DNA from: a virus
Direction: 5' to 3' (one strand)
IMG/VR virus record: IMGVR_UViG_3300025889_000329
Coordinates: 1-38,564 of that record
Length of the DNA: 38,564 bases
The translations under genes were made by a program, and so were the position numbers. The notes beneath the pieces are model-generated. The model made no database searches, was not told the DNA's origin, and saw only the letters and a list, made by a program, of their open reading frames with translations. Below are positions 26,153 to 32,242 of the stretch, one piece after another; the first letter of the stretch is position 1, and every line of letters starts with the position of its first letter.

Positions 26153-26185
26153 GTTATAAGGTGTTGAAAATCAACACCTTATAAC
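26153..26185. repeat. Perfect 15-bp inverted repeat with AAA loop
   Basis: GTTATAAGGTGTTGA (26153-26167) is exactly repeated in reverse complement at 26171-26185, with AAA between. There is no T-tract after it on either strand, so it is not a normal terminator. The size, 3-base loop and ATAAGG core recall the three hairpin modules at 28.8, 29.6 and 31.9 kb, though the flanks differ. Protein-binding site or RNA hairpin. Confidence 0.6.
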
Positions 26186-26401: not shown

Positions 26402-26644
26402 TTACCTTTCCCAAGGTGCAACGTCAAAGCTCAAGTCTTCCTCAAAGCAGTAGTAGTCATGGTGGCGGTTCTTCCAGTCATACATATAGATGTAGTGCTT
26501 ACCTTCCCAATGAGTGGGGACTTCATGGCCGTCACAAGCCATGCAATACATTGCGCCCCTAACAGGGATTGAATATTGCTTGCCATTGTCAAAGGTGTAG
26601 GTGCGAAGGGTGATTCCGTTTGATGTAGTATCAGTGAATGTCAT
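26402..26644 (-). CDS. Hypothetical small protein with Cys/His cluster
   Basis: The 80-aa product begins MTFTDTTSNGITLRTYTFDN and has a Cys/His-rich middle (YCMACDGHEVPTHWEGKHYI) that could bind a metal, and an aromatic, acidic C-terminus (HHDYYCFEEDLSFDVAPWER). I do not recognise the family. The ATG is preceded by no SD; instead a good promoter ends 6 bases before it, so the mRNA should start at or next to the ATG. A CTTGGG/CCCAAG hairpin overlaps the gene's end, without T-tract. Confidence 0.6.
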   Translation of the reverse strand: MTFTDTTSNGITLRTYTFDNGKQYSIPVRGAMYCMACDGHEVPTHWEGKHYIYMYDWKNRHHDYYCFEEDLSFDVAPWER

Positions 26645-26650
26645 GTGATT

Positions 26651-26678
26651 AAATTACCATATCTTGTTCAGGAGTCAA
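26651..26678 (-). promoter_or_regulatory. Sigma-70 promoter, leaderless type, for the 80-aa gene
   Basis: On the minus strand TTGACT (26678-26673), 16 bp, then TAATTT (26656-26651) preceded by TGG (extended -10). Only AATCAC separates the -10 from the ATG at 26644, so transcription should start at about the A of ATG. The TGGTAATTTAATCAC-ATG block is identical to that before the next gene. Confidence 0.75.
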
Positions 26679-26729: not shown

Positions 26730-26963
26730 TCAGGCTGCGCAGTCCGCCCCGTTCGATGATGGATGCATCCCCAAGGTCTCGCACACCGTCATCCAGATCC
26801 CCCGCTCACAGTAGTCCTGCCTCATGTCGTTGAACTGGTCGATCATGTCCCGAAGCTTGTCGGATCTGTGAGGGTTCTCAAGCTGGTAGGAATACCTGTG
26901 GATCGCATTGGCGAGTGAGTTGAGCTTCTTAGCGGCTTTGGTTATGTCTTTCGTTCCTGTCAT
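26730..26963 (-). CDS. Hypothetical small helical protein
   Basis: The 77-aa product (MTGTKDITKAAKKLNSLANA) is mostly helical, with IHRYSYQLENPHRSDKLRDM and a Cys-containing C-terminus (YCERGIWMTVCETLGM). The gene is clearly richer in G+C than the head genes. It forms a single-gene unit with its own promoter and terminator and no SD. Family not recognised. Confidence 0.6.
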   Translation of the reverse strand: MTGTKDITKAAKKLNSLANAIHRYSYQLENPHRSDKLRDMIDQFNDMRQDYCERGIWMTVCETLGMHPSSNGADCAA

Positions 26964-26969
26964 GTGATT

Positions 26970-26997
26970 AAATTACCATATTCCATTTGAGAGTCAA
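26970..26997 (-). promoter_or_regulatory. Sigma-70 promoter, leaderless type, for the 77-aa gene
   Basis: TTGACT (26997-26992), 16 bp, TGG-TAATTT (26975-26970), then AATCAC and the ATG at 26963. Apart from the spacer it matches the promoter at 26651-26678, a duplicated control element for two unrelated proteins. Confidence 0.78.
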
Positions 26998-27008
26998 TAG
27001 AAAAAGTG

Positions 27009-27555: not shown

Positions 27556-28551
27556 TTACATAACCAAAGCAAACTCAGCACTTGGCTTGACTTTTAACTC
27601 TGCCAAAGCCCCCCTTGAGAAAGGATTACTGTCTGAAGGGTTAGCAGCAAGGTTCAAGATATCGCAGAACTTCCTTCGAGCCTTGAGGGAAGCATCAGCC
27701 TTGATCTTTTCCCAATCTCTAAAGAGCCGTGTCCCTGCGTTAAACAAACGGTAAAGAGTATCCCCAAGCCCTTGTTCATCCTCTGAAGGTGACACCCAGT
27801 TGACTGCAATGCGGGCTGCTGTAGTGGTCGAAACAACGTTTTTGCTGCAACGGATCACATTACCCAAGATGTTGAAAGCATCCTCATTGGATATCTGAAT
27901 CTCTTTCATCTTATCAAAGTTCCTTAGGTCGTTCTGAGCCTCGACCAATCCTTTCTGAAAAGTATCAGCAAGGAAGGAAAGGTTGATCTTCCCATCCTCC
28001 CCCAGCAAGGAGCGAGAATGTTTACGTTTACTCTTGGCTTGAGCAACGGACACTTCCATGCCATTCAAACAAGCAAGGCGTTTGATTGAAAAAGCCCCCT
28101 CTACTGACCAAGTGCCATCATAAGAGTTTTTCACTGAAAAGACTGGATTGAAGTCTTCCTTATCACTTTTCAAATCGGAAAGGATATCATAGTTCAAAAT
28201 TGCTCTTGAGCCGTGATCAAATACCTTTGCATTCATCTCGAAGTCCATCCCTGCACGTTCAATAGTTTGCGCCACTGCTTCATGCACTTCCCTGTTGGTG
28301 ATCAGGCACTTTGTCTGATAGTCGCCAAGGTAGTCGTCATTGTCTTCCCTAAATACGCCCCATGGTCCAGTGGGTTTTTTGGTTCGGGGGGAAAGCATTC
28401 GGTCTTGGTAGACTCCAAAATCCCAATCCTCAGATTCGGCGCTGCTTTTCTTCAATTGCTCTACTGGCGTCACGCTCTGAAAGCGAGGAGTGCCAGTCGT
28501 GATGACGCTTGTCATGTCGTAGTGTCCAGATGATGTTAATTGAATTGCCAT
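27556..28551 (-). CDS. DUF932-like protein of phages and plasmids
   Basis: The 331-aa product (MAIQLTSSGHYDMTSVITTG) resembles the DUF932 family: the segment FSVKNSYDGTWSVEGAFSIK then RLACLNGMEVSVAQAKSKRK matches the usual NSYDG...GAFRLVCxNGM signature. The C-terminal half is helical and carries AARIAVNWV and YRLFNAGTRLFRDW. The family occurs on plasmids, phages and mobile elements and has no settled biochemical role; it is often near replication or defence genes. Length is usual for the family. The leader (about 45-55 nt) is longer than those of neighbours but shows no SD, only A-rich sequence. Confidence 0.75.
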   Translation of the reverse strand: MAIQLTSSGHYDMTSVITTGTPRFQSVTPVEQLKKSSAESEDWDFGVYQDRMLSPRTKKPTGPWGVFREDNDDYLGDYQTKCLITNREVHEAVAQTIERAGMDFEMNAKVFDHGSRAILNYDILSDLKSDKEDFNPVFSVKNSYDGTWSVEGAFSIKRLACLNGMEVSVAQAKSKRKHSRSLLGEDGKINLSFLADTFQKGLVEAQNDLRNFDKMKEIQISNEDAFNILGNVIRCSKNVVSTTTAARIAVNWVSPSEDEQGLGDTLYRLFNAGTRLFRDWEKIKADASLKARRKFCDILNLAANPSDSNPFSRGALAELKVKPSAEFALVM

Positions 28552-28667: not shown

Positions 28668-28696
28668 TTGACAGCCGCCGTTGAATATGGTAAAAT
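28668..28696 (+). promoter_or_regulatory. Plus-strand promoter P1 with conserved GTGGTGCCCTGATG start
   Basis: TTGACA (28668-28673), exactly 17 bp ending in TGG, TAAAAT (28691-28696). GTGGTGCCCTGATG follows at 28701-28714, where transcription should start. No open frame of useful size follows: ATG at the end of the box gives only MCRS. An A7/T6 inverted tract follows at ~28728-28747, just before P2. Confidence 0.8.
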
Positions 28697-28748
28697 AGTA
28701 GTGGTGCCCTGATGTGCCGTAGCTAAGAAAAAAAGTGAAACTTTTTTG

Positions 28749-28777
28749 TTGACAACGCTTGACGCTTGTGGTAAAAT
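28749..28777 (+). promoter_or_regulatory. Plus-strand promoter P2 with conserved GTGGTGCCCTGATG start
   Basis: TTGACA (28749-28754), 17 bp ending in TGG, TAAAAT (28772-28777), then GTGGTGCCCTGATG at 28782-28795. Its transcript would run ~90 nt to the end of the hairpin module at 28839-28875. The A/T-tract in front (AAAAAAAGTGAAACTTTTTT) can be a UP-like element or a weak terminator of P1. Confidence 0.82.
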
Positions 28778-28838
28778 GTAAGTGGTGCCCTGATGTTGCC
28801 GCCGTCAAAGACTACACTCCCCCCTGCGCTCCCCCTTC

Positions 28839-28875
28839 TTTTATACAAGGTAGCTTGCAGCTACCTTGTATAAAA
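28839..28875. repeat. Hairpin module copy 1 (17-bp stem, TGC loop)
   Basis: The arm TTTTATACAAGGTAGCT (28839-28855) is perfectly complementary to 28859-28875. It is preceded by C-runs (CTCCCCCTTC) and followed by AAGATTATA, as in copies 2 and 3. It ends the region transcribed from P2. No U-tract follows on either strand, so it differs from the window's ordinary terminators. Confidence 0.85.
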
Positions 28876-28929
28876 AAGATTATACTGAAATCAAATTTTC
28901 ATGTCAACACCTAAATCGAAAAAAAGAAG

Positions 28930-29003
28930 AAAAAAAAGAGCGGGGACCGCTCCCCGCTCAAGACATATGAAAAGTATCAGCACAATCAACTGATACGGTT
29001 TGA
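28930..29003 (-). ncRNA. Candidate small RNA with two hairpins and a terminator
   Basis: Between two minus-strand units lies an orphan terminator: GAGCGGGG (28938-28945) with CCCCGCTC (28952-28959), then a long T-tract on the minus strand (A run from 28937 leftwards). Upstream of it is a second hairpin, GTATCAG/CTGATAC with a 9-base loop (about 28974-28996). A TTGACA at 29031-29026 is correctly placed for a start near 29000, but the -10 is poor (CAGGCT). No open frame exceeds two codons. This looks like a ~75-nt sRNA, or the remains of a deleted gene. Confidence 0.5.
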
Positions 29004-29064
29004 GCCTGCCCTTTTTGACTGGATTTGTCAACTAGAAAAAAAGAAATTTTTTGCAATTTTTTTG

Positions 29065-29093
29065 TTGACTGGTAGCGATGCAATTGGTATAAA
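29065..29093 (+). promoter_or_regulatory. Plus-strand promoter P3 with conserved GTGGTGCCCTGAT start
   Basis: TTGACT (29065-29070), 17 bp ending in TGG, TATAAA (29088-29093), followed by GTGGTGCCCTGAT at 29098-29110. It would transcribe into the terminator at 29129 and then antisense to the 96-aa gene. Here no hairpin module follows. Confidence 0.8.
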
Positions 29094-29128
29094 ATAAGTG
29101 GTGCCCTGATTTCCCCAGTAAATAAGGC

Positions 29129-29156
29129 AAAAAAAAGAGGGGGCCAAAGCCCCCTT
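29129..29156 (-). terminator. Terminator of the 96-aa gene
   Basis: GGGGGC (29139-29144) with GCCCCC (29149-29154), loop CAAA, and eight A on its left forming the minus-strand U-tract. It is directly behind the stop at 29159. Read on the plus strand it could also slow transcripts from P3. Confidence 0.9.
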
Positions 29157-29158
29157 GA

Positions 29159-29449
29159 TTAAATCCGCTCAAGGATCATTACGTTCCCGTCGGTGTCAAT
29201 GATGCGGAATCCCAGCCCCTTCAAGCCCTGCTCCATCTCGTTGTAGATGGTTTCAGAAACATATCCCGCCAGCAGAGGAGCAATCTCTTCATCCTCAAAC
29301 ACAATGCGAGTCTCCTCGCTGCCGAAGCCCCACCGTGCGATGTCAGGATATATCTCCTCACCTTCAACAGTCATCTCATACTTCTCGATGAGTCCAGCAA
29401 AGAAGCTTTCAACTTCCTTGATCCGATTTGGTTTGTTCATTGTTGCCAT
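29159..29449 (-). CDS. Hypothetical small acidic protein
   Basis: From ATG 29449 the 96-aa product reads MATMNKPNRIKEVESFFAGL, then an acidic alpha/beta stretch (EYEEI-like: YEMTVEGEEIYPDIARWGFG, VFEDEEIAPLLAGYV) and ends GFRIIDTDGNVMILERI. The pattern suggests a compact cytoplasmic protein with a C-terminal beta-hairpin. Family not recognised. The longer frame to 29626 would include promoters and a poly-Lys/Phe stretch and is rejected. It has its own promoter and terminator and no SD. Confidence 0.6.
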   Translation of the reverse strand: MATMNKPNRIKEVESFFAGLIEKYEMTVEGEEIYPDIARWGFGSEETRIVFEDEEIAPLLAGYVSETIYNEMEQGLKGLGFRIIDTDGNVMILERI

Positions 29450-29459
29450 AACAGTAAAG

Positions 29460-29488
29460 AAATTATCAGATCCTAATTGAGTTGTCAA
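29460..29488 (-). promoter_or_regulatory. Sigma-70 promoter, near-leaderless, for the 96-aa gene
   Basis: TTGACA (29488-29483), 17 bp, TAATTT (29465-29460), then 10 bases to the ATG at 29449. The spacer end GGATCTGA is shared with the promoter at 30379-30407. It diverges from P4. Confidence 0.78.
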
Positions 29489-29532
29489 CAGATTCTGATC
29501 AAAAAAAAGAAAAACTTTTTTGCATTTTTTGC

Positions 29533-29561
29533 TTGACCTACCCCATAGGAATTGGTATAAA
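29533..29561 (+). promoter_or_regulatory. Plus-strand promoter P4 with conserved GTGGACCCCTGATG start
   Basis: TTGACC (29533-29538), 17 bp ending in TGG, TATAAA (29556-29561), followed by GTGGACCCCTGATG at 29566-29579. The predicted RNA of about 86 nt ends with hairpin module copy 2. The ATG in the box opens only MKIK before a stop. Confidence 0.8.
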
Positions 29562-29616
29562 ATAAGTGGACCCCTGATGAAAATTAAGTAGCTCAGACTC
29601 CCCCTTTCTCTCCTCC

Positions 29617-29653
29617 TTTTATACAAGGTAGCTTTCAGCTACCTTGTATAAAA
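29617..29653. repeat. Hairpin module copy 2 (17-bp stem, TTC loop)
   Basis: The arm TTTTATACAAGGTAGCT (29617-29633) is complementary to 29637-29653. Arms are identical to copy 1; the loop differs (TTC against TGC). Flanks are again C-rich on the left (GACTCCCCC) and AAGATTATA on the right. Confidence 0.85.
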
Positions 29654-29708
29654 AAGATTATAACGTCACAATCAAAATCTCGTCAAGCATAATCGAAGAA
29701 AAAAAGAC

Positions 29709-29738
29709 AAAAAAAAGAGGGGGCCGAAGCCCCCCTTG
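29709..29738 (-). terminator. Terminator of the 74-aa zinc-ribbon gene
   Basis: GGGGGC (29719-29724) with GCCCCC (29729-29734), loop CGAA, A8 to the left giving the U-tract on the minus RNA; it abuts the stop at 29740. Confidence 0.9.
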
Positions 29739-29739
29739 T

Positions 29740-29964
29740 TTACTCTTCGAACCTATCCCATGGGCACTTATCGCACCATTCGATAGAGTCTTGGTTTTCG
29801 TCCCTGTACCACCTTTCGCCACATCCTGAGCAATCAAGGATTCTCTGCTTCCTTTCTTTTAAGGTTTTGTTCTCTTCCTTTGAATCGCCACCTCTCCAGT
29901 TCTCTTCGTCGTCTGAGTTGTTGTAGCGGTCCCAGCAGATGTCGTAATAGGCTTGATCATTCAT
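29740..29964 (-). CDS. Small acidic zinc-ribbon protein
   Basis: The 74-aa product (MNDQAYYDICWDRYNNSDDE) is acidic and has a zinc-ribbon-like pair CSGCG ... WCDKC near residues 45-68, separated by ~17 residues. Such small phage proteins often touch host transcription or nucleases, but nothing here fixes the role. It is a single-gene unit without SD, with a promoter 8 bases upstream of the ATG. Confidence 0.6.
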   Translation of the reverse strand: MNDQAYYDICWDRYNNSDDEENWRGGDSKEENKTLKERKQRILDCSGCGERWYRDENQDSIEWCDKCPWDRFEE

Positions 29965-29972
29965 ACGATTAA

Positions 29973-30001
29973 AATCTAATTGAAATATGATATCTTGTCA
30001 A
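29973..30001 (-). promoter_or_regulatory. Sigma-70 promoter, leaderless type, for the 74-aa gene
   Basis: TTGACA (30001-29996), 17 bp, TAGATT (29978-29973), 8 bases to the ATG at 29964; predicted leader about 1 nt. Confidence 0.78.
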
Positions 30002-30012
30002 CGGTTAATTGC

Positions 30013-30042
30013 AAAAAAAAGAGGGGGGCCGAAGCCCCCCTT
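30013..30042 (-). terminator. Terminator of the 107-aa gene
   Basis: GGGGGGC (30023-30029) with GCCCCCC (30034-30040), loop CGAA, A8 at 30013-30020 forming the U-tract; 6 nt past the stop at 30046. Confidence 0.9.
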
Positions 30043-30045
30043 GCC

Positions 30046-30369
30046 TTACCTCAAGAGAGGTTCCCAATTGAACGTCTCAGGGATAGAGTCTAAGATCTGC
30101 CGCCAGTAGCGGGGCATTTTCTTGAACAACAGCCCCATTTGCTTAGTGCTGAGAGTCCGGCCCCGCTCTACCTGCTGAGCAAAGCTTGAAAGGATCTCAG
30201 CATCCATTCCACTGAATCCCACACCATTCTGAGCCATGGTGAATCCTGCCCCTTGCTCGTCTGCGGTCTGGAAGCCGTAGACGACGGTTAACGCCCTGAG
30301 TGCCCACTTGGGATTGGTTCCGAGTTGGTTTTTGAGGGCGGCTTGTTTTGCTTTCTTTGTGACCTTCAT
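30046..30369 (-). CDS. Conserved small phage protein of unknown function
   Basis: The 107-aa product (MKVTKKAKQAALKNQLGTNP) contains KWALRALTVVYGFQTADEQ, then NGVGFSGMDAEILSSFAQQV and STKQMGLLFKKMPRYWRQIL. This arrangement (RALxxxYxxQTxxEQ ... NGxGFxGxDAxILSSFA ... KQxxxLxxxMxxYW) recurs in small proteins of phages and plasmids as far as I recall; the function is unknown. It has a promoter 9 bases upstream of ATG and no SD. Confidence 0.65.
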   Translation of the reverse strand: MKVTKKAKQAALKNQLGTNPKWALRALTVVYGFQTADEQGAGFTMAQNGVGFSGMDAEILSSFAQQVERGRTLSTKQMGLLFKKMPRYWRQILDSIPETFNWEPLLR

Positions 30370-30378
30370 GTTGGAAAT

Positions 30379-30407
30379 AAATTATCAGATCCCAATTAGA
30401 TTGTCAA
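30379..30407 (-). promoter_or_regulatory. Sigma-70 promoter, near-leaderless, for the 107-aa gene
   Basis: TTGACA (30407-30402), 17 bp ending GGATCTGA, TAATTT (30384-30379), 9 bases to the ATG at 30369. Confidence 0.78.
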
Positions 30408-30430
30408 CCGTTAAAATGAAAAAAAAGAAG

Positions 30431-30456
30431 AAAAAAAAGAGGGGCCGAAGCCCCTT
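30431..30456 (-). terminator. Terminator of the 49-aa/62-aa operon
   Basis: GGGGC (30441-30445) with GCCCC (30450-30454), loop CGAA, A8 on the left for the U-tract. It directly follows the stop at 30459. Confidence 0.85.
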
Positions 30457-30458
30457 GT

Positions 30459-30608
30459 TTAATCATCAAAGCATTGATCATCTTTCCATGAGTCATAGTC
30501 CCTGTCTACCTTCTCCCAGTAGGCCAGTTCCCTTTCTTCCATGCTCTTGTCTTCCTCTCCAATGAAAGCTCTATCCCTGTCAAATCCTCCGAATGTCCTG
30601 TCAATCAT
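30459..30608 (-). CDS. Tiny acidic protein, 49 aa
   Basis: The frame from ATG 30608 encodes MIDRTFGGFDRDRAFIGEED followed by a charged helical half ending DSWKDDQCFDD. It is real by context: an SD (GGAGAG, 3 nt before the ATG), a gap of 12 nt from the upstream 62-aa gene, and a terminator right after the stop. It is the second gene of a two-gene unit and, unlike the leaderless genes, has an SD because it is translated internally. Function unknown. Confidence 0.65.
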   Translation of the reverse strand: MIDRTFGGFDRDRAFIGEEDKSMEERELAYWEKVDRDYDSWKDDQCFDD

Positions 30609-30620
30609 ATCTCTCCTTTC

Positions 30621-30809
30621 TTAGTATCCAAGCCAATCAAGCAAGTCTTGAACGGTCCATTCTGAAGCATCATGCCATTCCGAACACCAGTCTTTTGCGC
30701 CCTTGGGCTGGAAAACATCCTCAACAAATAGCTGAGTCCTTTGCCTGTTTGTAAAGAACCTTTGGTCATGCTGCTTTAAGATCCTTACCAGTTTGTCAAT
30801 TCCTGTCAT
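30621..30809 (-). CDS. Hypothetical small protein, 62 aa
   Basis: The product begins MTGIDKLVRILKQHDQRFFT and ends HDASEWTVQDLLDWLGY, with Trp- and acid-rich C-terminal helix. Family not recognised. The promoter lies 8 bases before the ATG, so the first gene of this unit is leaderless while the following 49-aa gene uses an SD. Confidence 0.6.
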   Translation of the reverse strand: MTGIDKLVRILKQHDQRFFTNRQRTQLFVEDVFQPKGAKDWCSEWHDASEWTVQDLLDWLGY

Positions 30810-30817
30810 ACGGTTCT

Positions 30818-30845
30818 AATCTACTGGAAAAAAAGAAAATGTCAA
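30818..30845 (-). promoter_or_regulatory. Sigma-70 promoter, leaderless type, for the 62-aa gene
   Basis: TTGACA (30845-30840), 16 bp, TAGATT (30823-30818), 8 bases to ATG at 30809. Confidence 0.75.
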
Positions 30846-30880
30846 ATGGAAAATTATCAGAAAATAATTGAAAAAAGATC

Positions 30881-31039
30881 TTGCAATCAAAGGATCAAAA
30901 TGCTAAATTGTTATCAGTTAAAGGGAAGGTGGCGGCGATACCGATAGCCAGTGAGGAGATCAAACTCCAAGAGTAGGGGACCGGACCCTGCCCTAATTCA
31001 TAAATAGTAAAAGACTCTCATTTCATTTTAGCATTTTTT
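30881..31039 (+). ncRNA. Candidate structured RNA region with plus-strand promoter
   Basis: In the gene-free stretch 30846-31076, TTGCAA (30881-30886), 17 bp and TAAATT (30904-30909) could start a plus-strand RNA. AAAATGCTAAA (30897-30907) is complementary to TTTAGCATTTT (31027-31037), which is followed by more T, and a local GGAG/CTCC hairpin (30955-30968) and G/C-rich words (GGTGGCGGCG, GGGGACCGGACCC) lie between. No open frame of note crosses it. The left arm overlaps the -10, so start and closing stem cannot both be right. Confidence 0.3.
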
Positions 31040-31076
31040 CCCCTACCTTGTAAAGCTTTTTCTTCAAAAAAAAGTA

Positions 31077-31104
31077 CAAAAAAAAGACTCCCTAAAGGGA
31101 GTCT
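31077..31104 (-). terminator. Terminator of the GP88-like gene
   Basis: GACTCCC (31087-31093) with GGGAGTC (31098-31104), loop TAAA, A run to its left for the U-tract; 15 nt past the stop at 31120. Confidence 0.9.
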
Positions 31105-31119
31105 GTGCAAGCTTAATTT

Positions 31120-31827
31120 CTATACATTGTCAACAACAAATCCAGACAAATCTTTAATTGCTTTACCTTTAGCCTTGAGCGCAACAATGCAATTTTTAGG
31201 ATCTAAAAATCTCAAATCATGCTCGTCTCCATTGACTACTTTATACTTGCGACCCTTGAAAGTATACGTTCCACGTTTAATGACTTTCTCATGGTCCTTG
31301 AATACCATTGCCACATTGCCACCCTTGCGGAGTATGATATCGCATAGTTCATCATTGTTTTCTGATCTAGAAAATGTTAAGTGATAGTTTGCTGGCATTT
31401 TACCGTCTAAAAATGAGACCATTCTTTTAGCTCGTTTTGTGTAATCGTAAAATTGAGTTTCCTTTTCAGTTTGGAAAATGTTCTCATTCTCCCATGCGAT
31501 ATCACTTGTTCCATTTAAACGCACAACAAACCGATTGAATTTCTTCTTACCCTTCCTAATTTCATCCTTCAATTGTGCAATGAATTCTTGCTTGTCAGTA
31601 AAGAATCTTTGCGTTTTCTTGATCCTTGCTTGCTTCACGTTATCCATGCTTCCACGGCCAGCAGTAAAAAGACAAGCTTGTCTACATCCCTTAGAAGCAT
31701 TGGGACAAGTGTTTGCAATCCCTGATTCATCGCTTGGCGCAAGGTATACAATGCCAGTTGTGATGCCCAATTTTTGACCTTTAATGGTCTTTGCGTTTGT
31801 ATCGATTCCAAGTATTGTCTGTTTCAT
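31120..31827 (-). CDS. GP88-like phage protein with Cys cluster
   Basis: From ATG 31827 the 235-aa product (MKQTILGIDTNAKTIKGQKL) shows the arrangement of the phage GP88 family: GIVYLAPSDESG, then a Cys cluster ANTCPNASKGCRQACLFTAG (Cys-x6-Cys-x3-Cys), then NVKQARIKKTQRFFTDKQEF, VVRLNGTSDIAWEN and NYHLTFSRSENN. The Cys spacing is not the CxxxCxxC of radical SAM enzymes, although a barrel fold with metal binding is possible. Function is unknown. The longer frame to 31896 would begin inside the promoter and is rejected. It is transcribed alone, with a leader of about 3-4 nt. Confidence 0.7.
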   Translation of the reverse strand: MKQTILGIDTNAKTIKGQKLGITTGIVYLAPSDESGIANTCPNASKGCRQACLFTAGRGSMDNVKQARIKKTQRFFTDKQEFIAQLKDEIRKGKKKFNRFVVRLNGTSDIAWENENIFQTEKETQFYDYTKRAKRMVSFLDGKMPANYHLTFSRSENNDELCDIILRKGGNVAMVFKDHEKVIKRGTYTFKGRKYKVVNGDEHDLRFLDPKNCIVALKAKGKAIKDLSGFVVDNV

Positions 31828-31837
31828 ATGCACAAAC

Positions 31838-31865
31838 AAAATACCACATGACCAAAGGGAGTCAA
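31838..31865 (-). promoter_or_regulatory. Sigma-70 promoter, near-leaderless, for the GP88-like gene
   Basis: TTGACT (31865-31860), 16 bp ending in TGG, TATTTT (31843-31838), then 10 bases ending GTGCAT and the ATG. The GCATATG start context is shared with the genes at 27468, 32466, 32915 and 33841. Confidence 0.75.
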
Positions 31866-31929
31866 TTTTTTTTTCAATTAAATTCTCATAGCACAAAAAA
31901 GAAAGCTACACCTCCCCGAACGGCTTCCC

Positions 31930-31968
31930 TTCTTATACAAGATAACCGAAGGTTATCTTGTATAAGAA
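31930..31968. repeat. Hairpin module copy 3 (18-bp stem, GAA loop, covarying)
   Basis: The arm 31930-31947 (TTCTTATACAAGATAACC) is perfectly complementary to 31951-31968. Compared with copies 1 and 2 the outer TATACAAG is kept, while GGTAGCT has become GATAACC and the opposite arm has changed to match. Flanks are again CTCCCC/CTTCCC on the left and AAGATTATA on the right. No clear plus-strand promoter precedes this copy. Confidence 0.85.
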
Positions 31969-32080
31969 AGATTATACCAATGCACCAATCAAGTCGTCAA
32001 GCAAATTCGTGAACTTTTTTTATCAAATTTGTGCTGCCAGAATTCAATTAAAATCTTATAGTTTATATACTCGCCAATAT

Positions 32081-32102: not shown

Positions 32103-32240
32103 TTTAGTTATTTAGCAGTAATCTGGCATTCTTGGTTATTTAGGTAATATCTGGCATTCTTGAAAGGTTATTTAAGAGCCATCCGACAACCTTGGAGGTT
32201 ATTTAGTTATTTAGGGGGTATCCGGCAACCTTGGAAGGTT
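32103..32240 (+). repeat. Iteron-like repeat cluster B, four tandem units
   Basis: Four plus-oriented units begin at 32122 (TCTGGCATTCTTGG), 32150 (TCTGGCATTCTTG), 32182 (TCCGACAACCTTGG) and 32221 (TCCGGCAACCTTGG); each is followed by GGTTATTTAG or a close variant. Spacing is 28, 32 and 39 bp. The consensus TCYGGCAnYCTTGG-n-GGTTATTTAG is also seen in clusters A (26.35 kb) and C (34.0 kb). There is no coding frame here. Confidence 0.75.
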
Positions 32241-32242
32241 TT

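Follow-up and report, generated by a model that had tools for sequence, protein, structure and literature searches.

Three perfect hairpins at predicted early promoters of an uncultured phage as candidate 5' stabilising leaders

What is the function of three perfect hairpins in the early half of a phage genome, and from which strand are they read? The DNA in question is a 38,564-base uncultured-phage fragment from IMG/VR (hereafter the window, i.e., the whole stretch that was analysed). The three hairpins have arms of 17, 17 and 18 base pairs (bp) in copies 1, 2 and 3, respectively, with 100% complementarity and loops of 3 nucleotides (nt), and all other palindromes in the window are shorter. 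The outer stem TTATACAAG/CTTGTATAA is identical in 3/3 copies and the flank AAGATTATA is common to them; these shared elements, the loops and the positions match the sequence as described in an initial annotation of the window. The three copies are as follows.

28839-28875, minus strand: hairpin copy 1; predicted transcribed part 28871-28843, a 13-bp stem; minus-strand loop GCA.
29617-29653, minus strand: hairpin copy 2; predicted transcribed stem 29649-29621; minus-strand loop GAA.
31930-31968, minus strand: hairpin copy 3, carrying the four compensated pairs; predicted transcribed stem 31963-31935; minus-strand loop TTC.

In dinucleotide-preserving shuffles of the region at 25.4-38.6 kilobases (kb), perfect arms of at least 12 bp appear with a mean of 0.01 per shuffle, and the outer dyad, found 3 times, has a mean of 0.07; the chance expectation for such hairpins is essentially zero. 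None of the three is called as an intrinsic terminator (a GC-rich stem followed by a U-tract) in either direction, and terminator calling confirmed that no U-tract follows them on the plus strand, as first noted. For the hairpin modules, Rfam yields no match at the gathering score and no meaningful one below it, and pattern scans for the hairpin TATACAAG in IMG/VR and in one genome per GTDB species, which may not have covered the records closest to that of the window, returned unrelated matches or none. On the minus strand at 26153-26185, there is another perfect 15-bp hairpin with a 3-nt loop, GTTATAAGGTGTTGA-TTT-TCAACACCTTATAAC, that loosely resembles copies 1-3; it was rejected as a fourth copy, having neither the promoter nor the flanks and looking terminator-like.

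The minus strand is the orientation of the called window genes. On this strand, the conserved flank AAGATTATA is the reverse complement of the -10 box TATAATCTT, and each hairpin is preceded by a near-perfect match to the sigma-70 consensus: TTGACA-N17-TATAAT in M1 (12/12) and TTGACG-N18-TATAAT in M2 and M3 (11/12 each).

28902-28907, minus strand: M1 -35 box TTGACA, 12/12 together with the -10 box, spacer 17.
28879-28884, minus strand: M1 -10 box TATAAT, the reverse complement of the flank.
29681-29686, minus strand: M2 -35 box TTGACG, 11/12, spacer 18.
29657-29662, minus strand: M2 -10 box TATAAT, promoter match.
31995-32000, minus strand: M3 -35 box TTGACG, 11/12, spacer 18, with TG ahead of the -10 box.
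31971-31976, minus strand: M3 -10 box TATAAT, promoter match.

M1 is the best promoter match in the 25.4-38.6 kb region, and M2 and M3 are two of its 11/12 matches; matches of at least 11/12 occur with a mean of 0.32 per shuffled region. A survey of 549 promoter-like sites of at least 10/12 in the window and in related phages identifies a non-terminator hairpin of at least 9 bp at the +1 offset only at M1-M3, all other hairpins of this size at that offset being terminators read backwards. The hexamers, the discriminator and the hairpin are kept between the copies, and the spacers are near the shuffled level, at most ~2 standard deviations above it. With normal spacing, transcription is predicted to start at the A of ATACAAG or one to two bases from it, so that the RNA would begin with the stem. 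Each of the three promoters opens a gene unit or lies close to its beginning, with M1 and M2 lying 20-35 bp past the terminators of the preceding unit (28959-28938 and 29735-29718, respectively). A scan of 26 related records for the consensus promoter followed by CTT found none. The position of 3/3 copies at the predicted +1 of minus-strand promoters does not agree with the original placement of the hairpins at the 3' ends of plus-strand RNAs; the C-rich left flank and the right flank had likewise been assigned to the wrong strand, the right flank being the minus-strand -10 box.

Read on the minus strand, the C-rich left flank becomes a purine-rich tract behind the hairpin that resembles a Shine-Dalgarno (SD) sequence.

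28817-28842, minus strand: M1 purine-rich SD-like tract AAAAGAAGGGGGAGCGCAGGGGGGAG, pairing with the anti-SD CACCUCCUU at -10.1 kcal/mol.
29598-29620, minus strand: M2 SD-like tract AAAAGGAGGAGAGAAAGGGGGAG, 23 nt, all purine, -10.9 kcal/mol.
31911-31934, minus strand: M3 purine-rich SD-like tract AAGAAGGGAAGCCGTTCGGGGAGG, -14.3 kcal/mol.

The 5th percentile of the background is -8.4 kcal/mol, and hardly any gene start in the window pairs with the anti-SD more strongly than the three tracts do. No properly spaced start codon follows the tract at M1, M2 or M3; all three leaders thus carry an SD-like tract that does not serve a start codon, as do polypurine and STAB-SD stabilisers. The adjoining stem arm ACAAGGUAGC / ACAAGAUAACC (28843-28871, 31935-31963) resembles ACAAGGUARCC, a universal segment of 16S rRNA at about position 1500, presumably by coincidence. 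The first genes downstream, with no GC-rich terminator found between them and their respective promoters, are the following.

27556-28551, minus strand: DUF932 gene, downstream of M1, predicted leader of ~320 nt.
29159-29449, minus strand: small open reading frame (ORF), downstream of M2, predicted leader of ~200 nt.
31120-31827, minus strand: GP88-family gene, downstream of M3, predicted leader of ~136 nt.

Unlike these long leaders, early genes at 26630-26663, 26960-27000 and 31827-31865 (minus strand) start ~7-15 nt after a -10-like box, which suggests leaderless or nearly leaderless messages.

The sequence of copy 3 differs from those of copies 1 and 2 at four pairs, and 4/4 of the differences are compensated, with 0/51 unpaired cells; sliding the register abolishes the compensation. 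The initial description of these changes, at inner pairs and one outer pair, was accurate in this respect. Each of the four is a transition and could have had a G-U pair as its intermediate. In folds of the full leaders, the stem probability is close to 1, with weaker outer pairs in one truncated M3 fold.

The promoter match, the position, the stem, the purine tract and the compensation are directly visible in the M modules, and we give a probability of about one half to the interpretation that the hairpins form the 5'-terminal stem-loops of early transcripts from the minus strand and act as 5' stabilisers. Under this interpretation, the strong sigma-70 promoter M1, M2 or M3 would start the RNA at the hairpin or within a few bases of it, so the 5' end would be a stem of at least 13 bp, with next to no unpaired nucleotides ahead of it; behind it would come the purine-rich SD-like tract and then the leader of DUF932, the small ORF or GP88. 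The blunt stem would keep RppH, RNase E or RNase J off the 5' end, and a 30S subunit bound on the purine tract would give extra protection. It is known that 5' stem-loops and polypurine or SD tracts stabilise mRNA and that a start codon is not needed (PMC3997798, PMC7509114, PMC2358910); mutation of the ribosome-binding site is reported to destabilise the messages of phage SP82, gsiB and aprE, and productive translation is not always required for the stability that ribosomes confer (PMC7509114). We propose a cassette of a promoter and a stabilising leader because known 5' stabilisers are built in this way, with a stem at the extreme 5' end and a purine tract that binds ribosomes.

On this interpretation, the M modules would be a further member of an already known class of elements and not something wholly new. 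As in the 5' stem-loop stabilisers of E. coli ompA and papA, B. subtilis aprE and M. smegmatis gyr, a stem-loop at the predicted 5' end, or a few nucleotides from it, is followed by an SD-like tract; however, the M stem is longer and perfect, there are three near-copies in one phage and the tract is not at a start codon. The 5'-proximal purine-rich SD, with no translation start required, is shared with the polypurine stabiliser of phage SP82 and with cry3A STAB-SD, from which the M tract differs in always having a perfect hairpin ahead of it. Similarly to putL/putR of HK022, antitermination RNAs that act on RNA polymerase so that it passes terminators, there are multiple copies per phage, just downstream of strong early promoters and with a terminator-rich region beyond, but put requires a pair of neighbouring stem-loops with a defined structure (~70 nt), whereas M1 and M2 have one clear stem and no comparable second one, and M3 folds as two stems. 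Recognition of the lambda boxB type was rejected, given that the loop varies between the copies (GCA, GAA and TTC).

Several observations weigh against the stabiliser interpretation. The stem begins at the +1 of promoters matching at 11-12/12, but these start positions are predicted ones. Most early genes in the window lack an SD, so the use of the purine tract by ribosomes is uncertain. At 136-320 nt, the leaders are long, and promoter-like sequences are also present closer to the genes; hence, the main messages may be others than the M transcripts. The M3 leader contains a weak terminator-like stem at ~+64. Pairing of the stem, by which a stabiliser of this class would be recognised, is kept through sequence change, but in two independent stem states only because the stem of copy 1 is identical to that of copy 2. 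A compensated pair (column 2/36) is ~2-3 nt upstream of the likeliest start, a place at which an RNA hairpin has no use for pairing. On the plus strand, the loops of copies 3 and 2, GAA and TTC, are exact reverse complements of each other, a signature of template switching. Finally, the dyad, extending from -3 to about +35 of three strong promoters, occupies the classical position of an operator, which fits the location at +1 as well.

In one alternative, DNA template switching between the arms during replication would have made the compensated changes, and mutation bias, not selection on pairing, would keep the hairpins. This process can create and keep perfect hairpins in DNA, with the inversion of the loop (PMC8794818) that is seen between GAA and TTC; 3/4 changes cluster near the loop, and the pair upstream of the predicted start is matched as well. 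Because the same pattern can arise in this way, compensation is weaker proof of selection than it appears, and the shuffle figure for it (2/500) rests on three sequences and is a weak test. Selection on pairing or on dyad symmetry, originally deduced from the compensated changes, stays reasonable, but compensation alone does not prove it. Nevertheless, a 3-nt inverted match has a 1/64 chance, template switching is compatible with function, and it leaves three perfect palindromes at the +1 of three strong promoters unexplained; we consider it somewhat unlikely. A DNA operator, the main rival of the stabiliser, on which a phage or host repressor or activator would bind the dyad over the +1 of the three strongest early promoters and shut them off, appears unlikely. 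The outer half-sites, identical in all copies, could be read by a dimer that contacts both halves, and the symmetry reaches just upstream of the predicted start. However, there are no extra sites (31 matches to the inner dyad vs 30.8 expected, and only the three for the outer dyad); the dyad is not found at further regulated promoters, a distribution compatible with an operator confined to three. The inner pairs change jointly in both arms, which independent half-site recognition does not need, and no repressor or integrase was seen among the annotated window genes, many of which are of unknown function. For a recombinase site, also suggested initially, no supporting evidence was found.

The remaining explanations involve the plus strand, where four convincing promoter-like elements at 28668-29578 share the downstream sequence AGTGGTGCCCTGAT; three of the four lie back to back with promoters of genes on the minus strand.

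28668-28696, plus strand: P1, promoter-like, with the conserved start AGTGGTGCCCTGAT; promoter scan.
28749-28777, plus strand: P2, promoter-like, convergent with M1; 11/12, extended -10.
29065-29093, plus strand: P3, promoter-like TTGACT-N17-TATAAA; from sequence.
29533-29561, plus strand: P4, promoter-like TTGACC-N17-TATAAA, convergent with M2; from sequence, by eye.

There is no plus-strand gene behind P1-P4, so these elements may make short antisense RNAs, and antisense effects on M1 and M2 are possible given that P2 and P4 converge on them; a pattern scan for homologues of the conserved P start region gave no matches. The M RNAs could be short and noncoding, with a length of ~70-150 nt and composed of the 5' hairpin, the purine tract and a weak U-rich end; their target would be ribosomes or the complementary C-rich P2/P4 RNAs. 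We consider this quite unlikely. There are U-runs at +64 (M3), +138 (M1) and +142 (M2), the anti-SD complementarity is strong with no start codon, and the P2/M1 and P4/M2 pairs converge ~80 bp apart, but M1 and M2 have no GC stem ahead of the U-run, M3 has no convergent P element and Rfam offers no match (see above). The alternative closest to the initial annotation, very unlikely in our estimate, holds that the hairpins are 3' ends of plus-strand P2/P4 RNAs, with Rho-dependent ends trimmed back to the stem. P2 is an 11/12 match with an extended -10, and the plus-strand RNA before the stem is C-rich and G-poor, like Rho-loading sites; yet the U-tract is missing, the near-perfect minus-strand promoters would be left unexplained and the P elements do not account for copy 3, which has no upstream plus-strand promoter. 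The assignment of copies 1 and 2 as the ends of the P2 and P4 RNAs thus reduces to geometry. The broader idea of an RNA stability element is reasonable, but for a 5' leader, the 3' picture lacking support given the position of the minus-strand promoters. Most unlikely is a role of the M modules as small phage RNAs in which the 5' hairpin would protect an SD mimic without a start codon that binds the 16S rRNA 3' end, capturing or biasing host ribosomes, with the convergent C-rich P2/P4 RNAs as antisense regulators.

Other noncoding features are found in the same part of the window. A candidate small RNA at 28935-28999 (minus strand) consists of the hairpin GTATCAGTTGATTGTGCTGATAC followed by the terminator GAGCGGGGAGCGGTCCCCGCTC and eight T, with TTGACA upstream. 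The noncoding stretch at 30896-31041 (plus strand), bounded by the inverted repeat AAAATGCTAAA/TTTAGCATTTT, is a possible structured RNA with a folding z-score of only -1.3; it has no Rfam match at the gathering score and no exact core match in IMG/VR. Four diverged repeats of ~37 nt (GTTATTTAG...ATCTGGCATTCTTG) occupy noncoding 32104-32242.

The window genes include those for terminase, PhoH, DUF932, GP88 and a protein with a sigma-70 region 2 whose score is below Pfam's cut-off. About 288 relatives of the structural half (9.5-25.46 kb) are present in IMG/VR, and the terminase shows 80-85% identity to the best of them, a 174,551-base contig among these. The early half has remote relatives only: GP88 reaches ~75% in 127-kb and 114-kb contigs and DUF932 ~28% in contigs L115, L124 and L141, and an IMG/VR search started with DUF932 retrieved no relatives. 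Although this disparity could point to a chimeric contig, a variable early region is more likely because DUF932 and other early proteins lie upstream of PhoH in the relatives, too.

In L115 and L141, where DUF932 is near PhoH, and in L122, a different hairpin, TGCAGTTCGAGG-GCGTT-CCTCGAACCGCA and variants, is found in the equivalent place, directly behind a -10-like TAAATT or TAATTT and ~30-45 nt ahead of early ATGs. Four distinct sequences of this hairpin contain two compensated pairs and two G-U pairs. The promoter reading is less firm here than in the window. Given that the hairpin sequence is unrelated, this is a parallel design, not homology; we count it in favour of the 5' leader interpretation. 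A further palindromic element, an imperfect 27-bp dyad GTAAGTCCTTGATAATCAACGACTTAC, is present in 23 and 10 copies in L202 and L209 (80-100 kb stretches of contigs G025 and G026); it is early and intergenic, often paired 50 bp apart around a GC-rich spacer, and absent from the window and G001.

If the 5' stabiliser interpretation is correct, large uncultured phages employ a single compact cassette, made up of a strong promoter, a 5' hairpin and an SD-like tract, repeatedly for several of their early genes, which would give long-lived messages, and related phages would have reached the same design via an unrelated hairpin. The M leader would then be a ready-made stabilising leader for reporters, and the case would counsel caution: a compensated hairpin needs to be examined on either strand and for signs of template switching.

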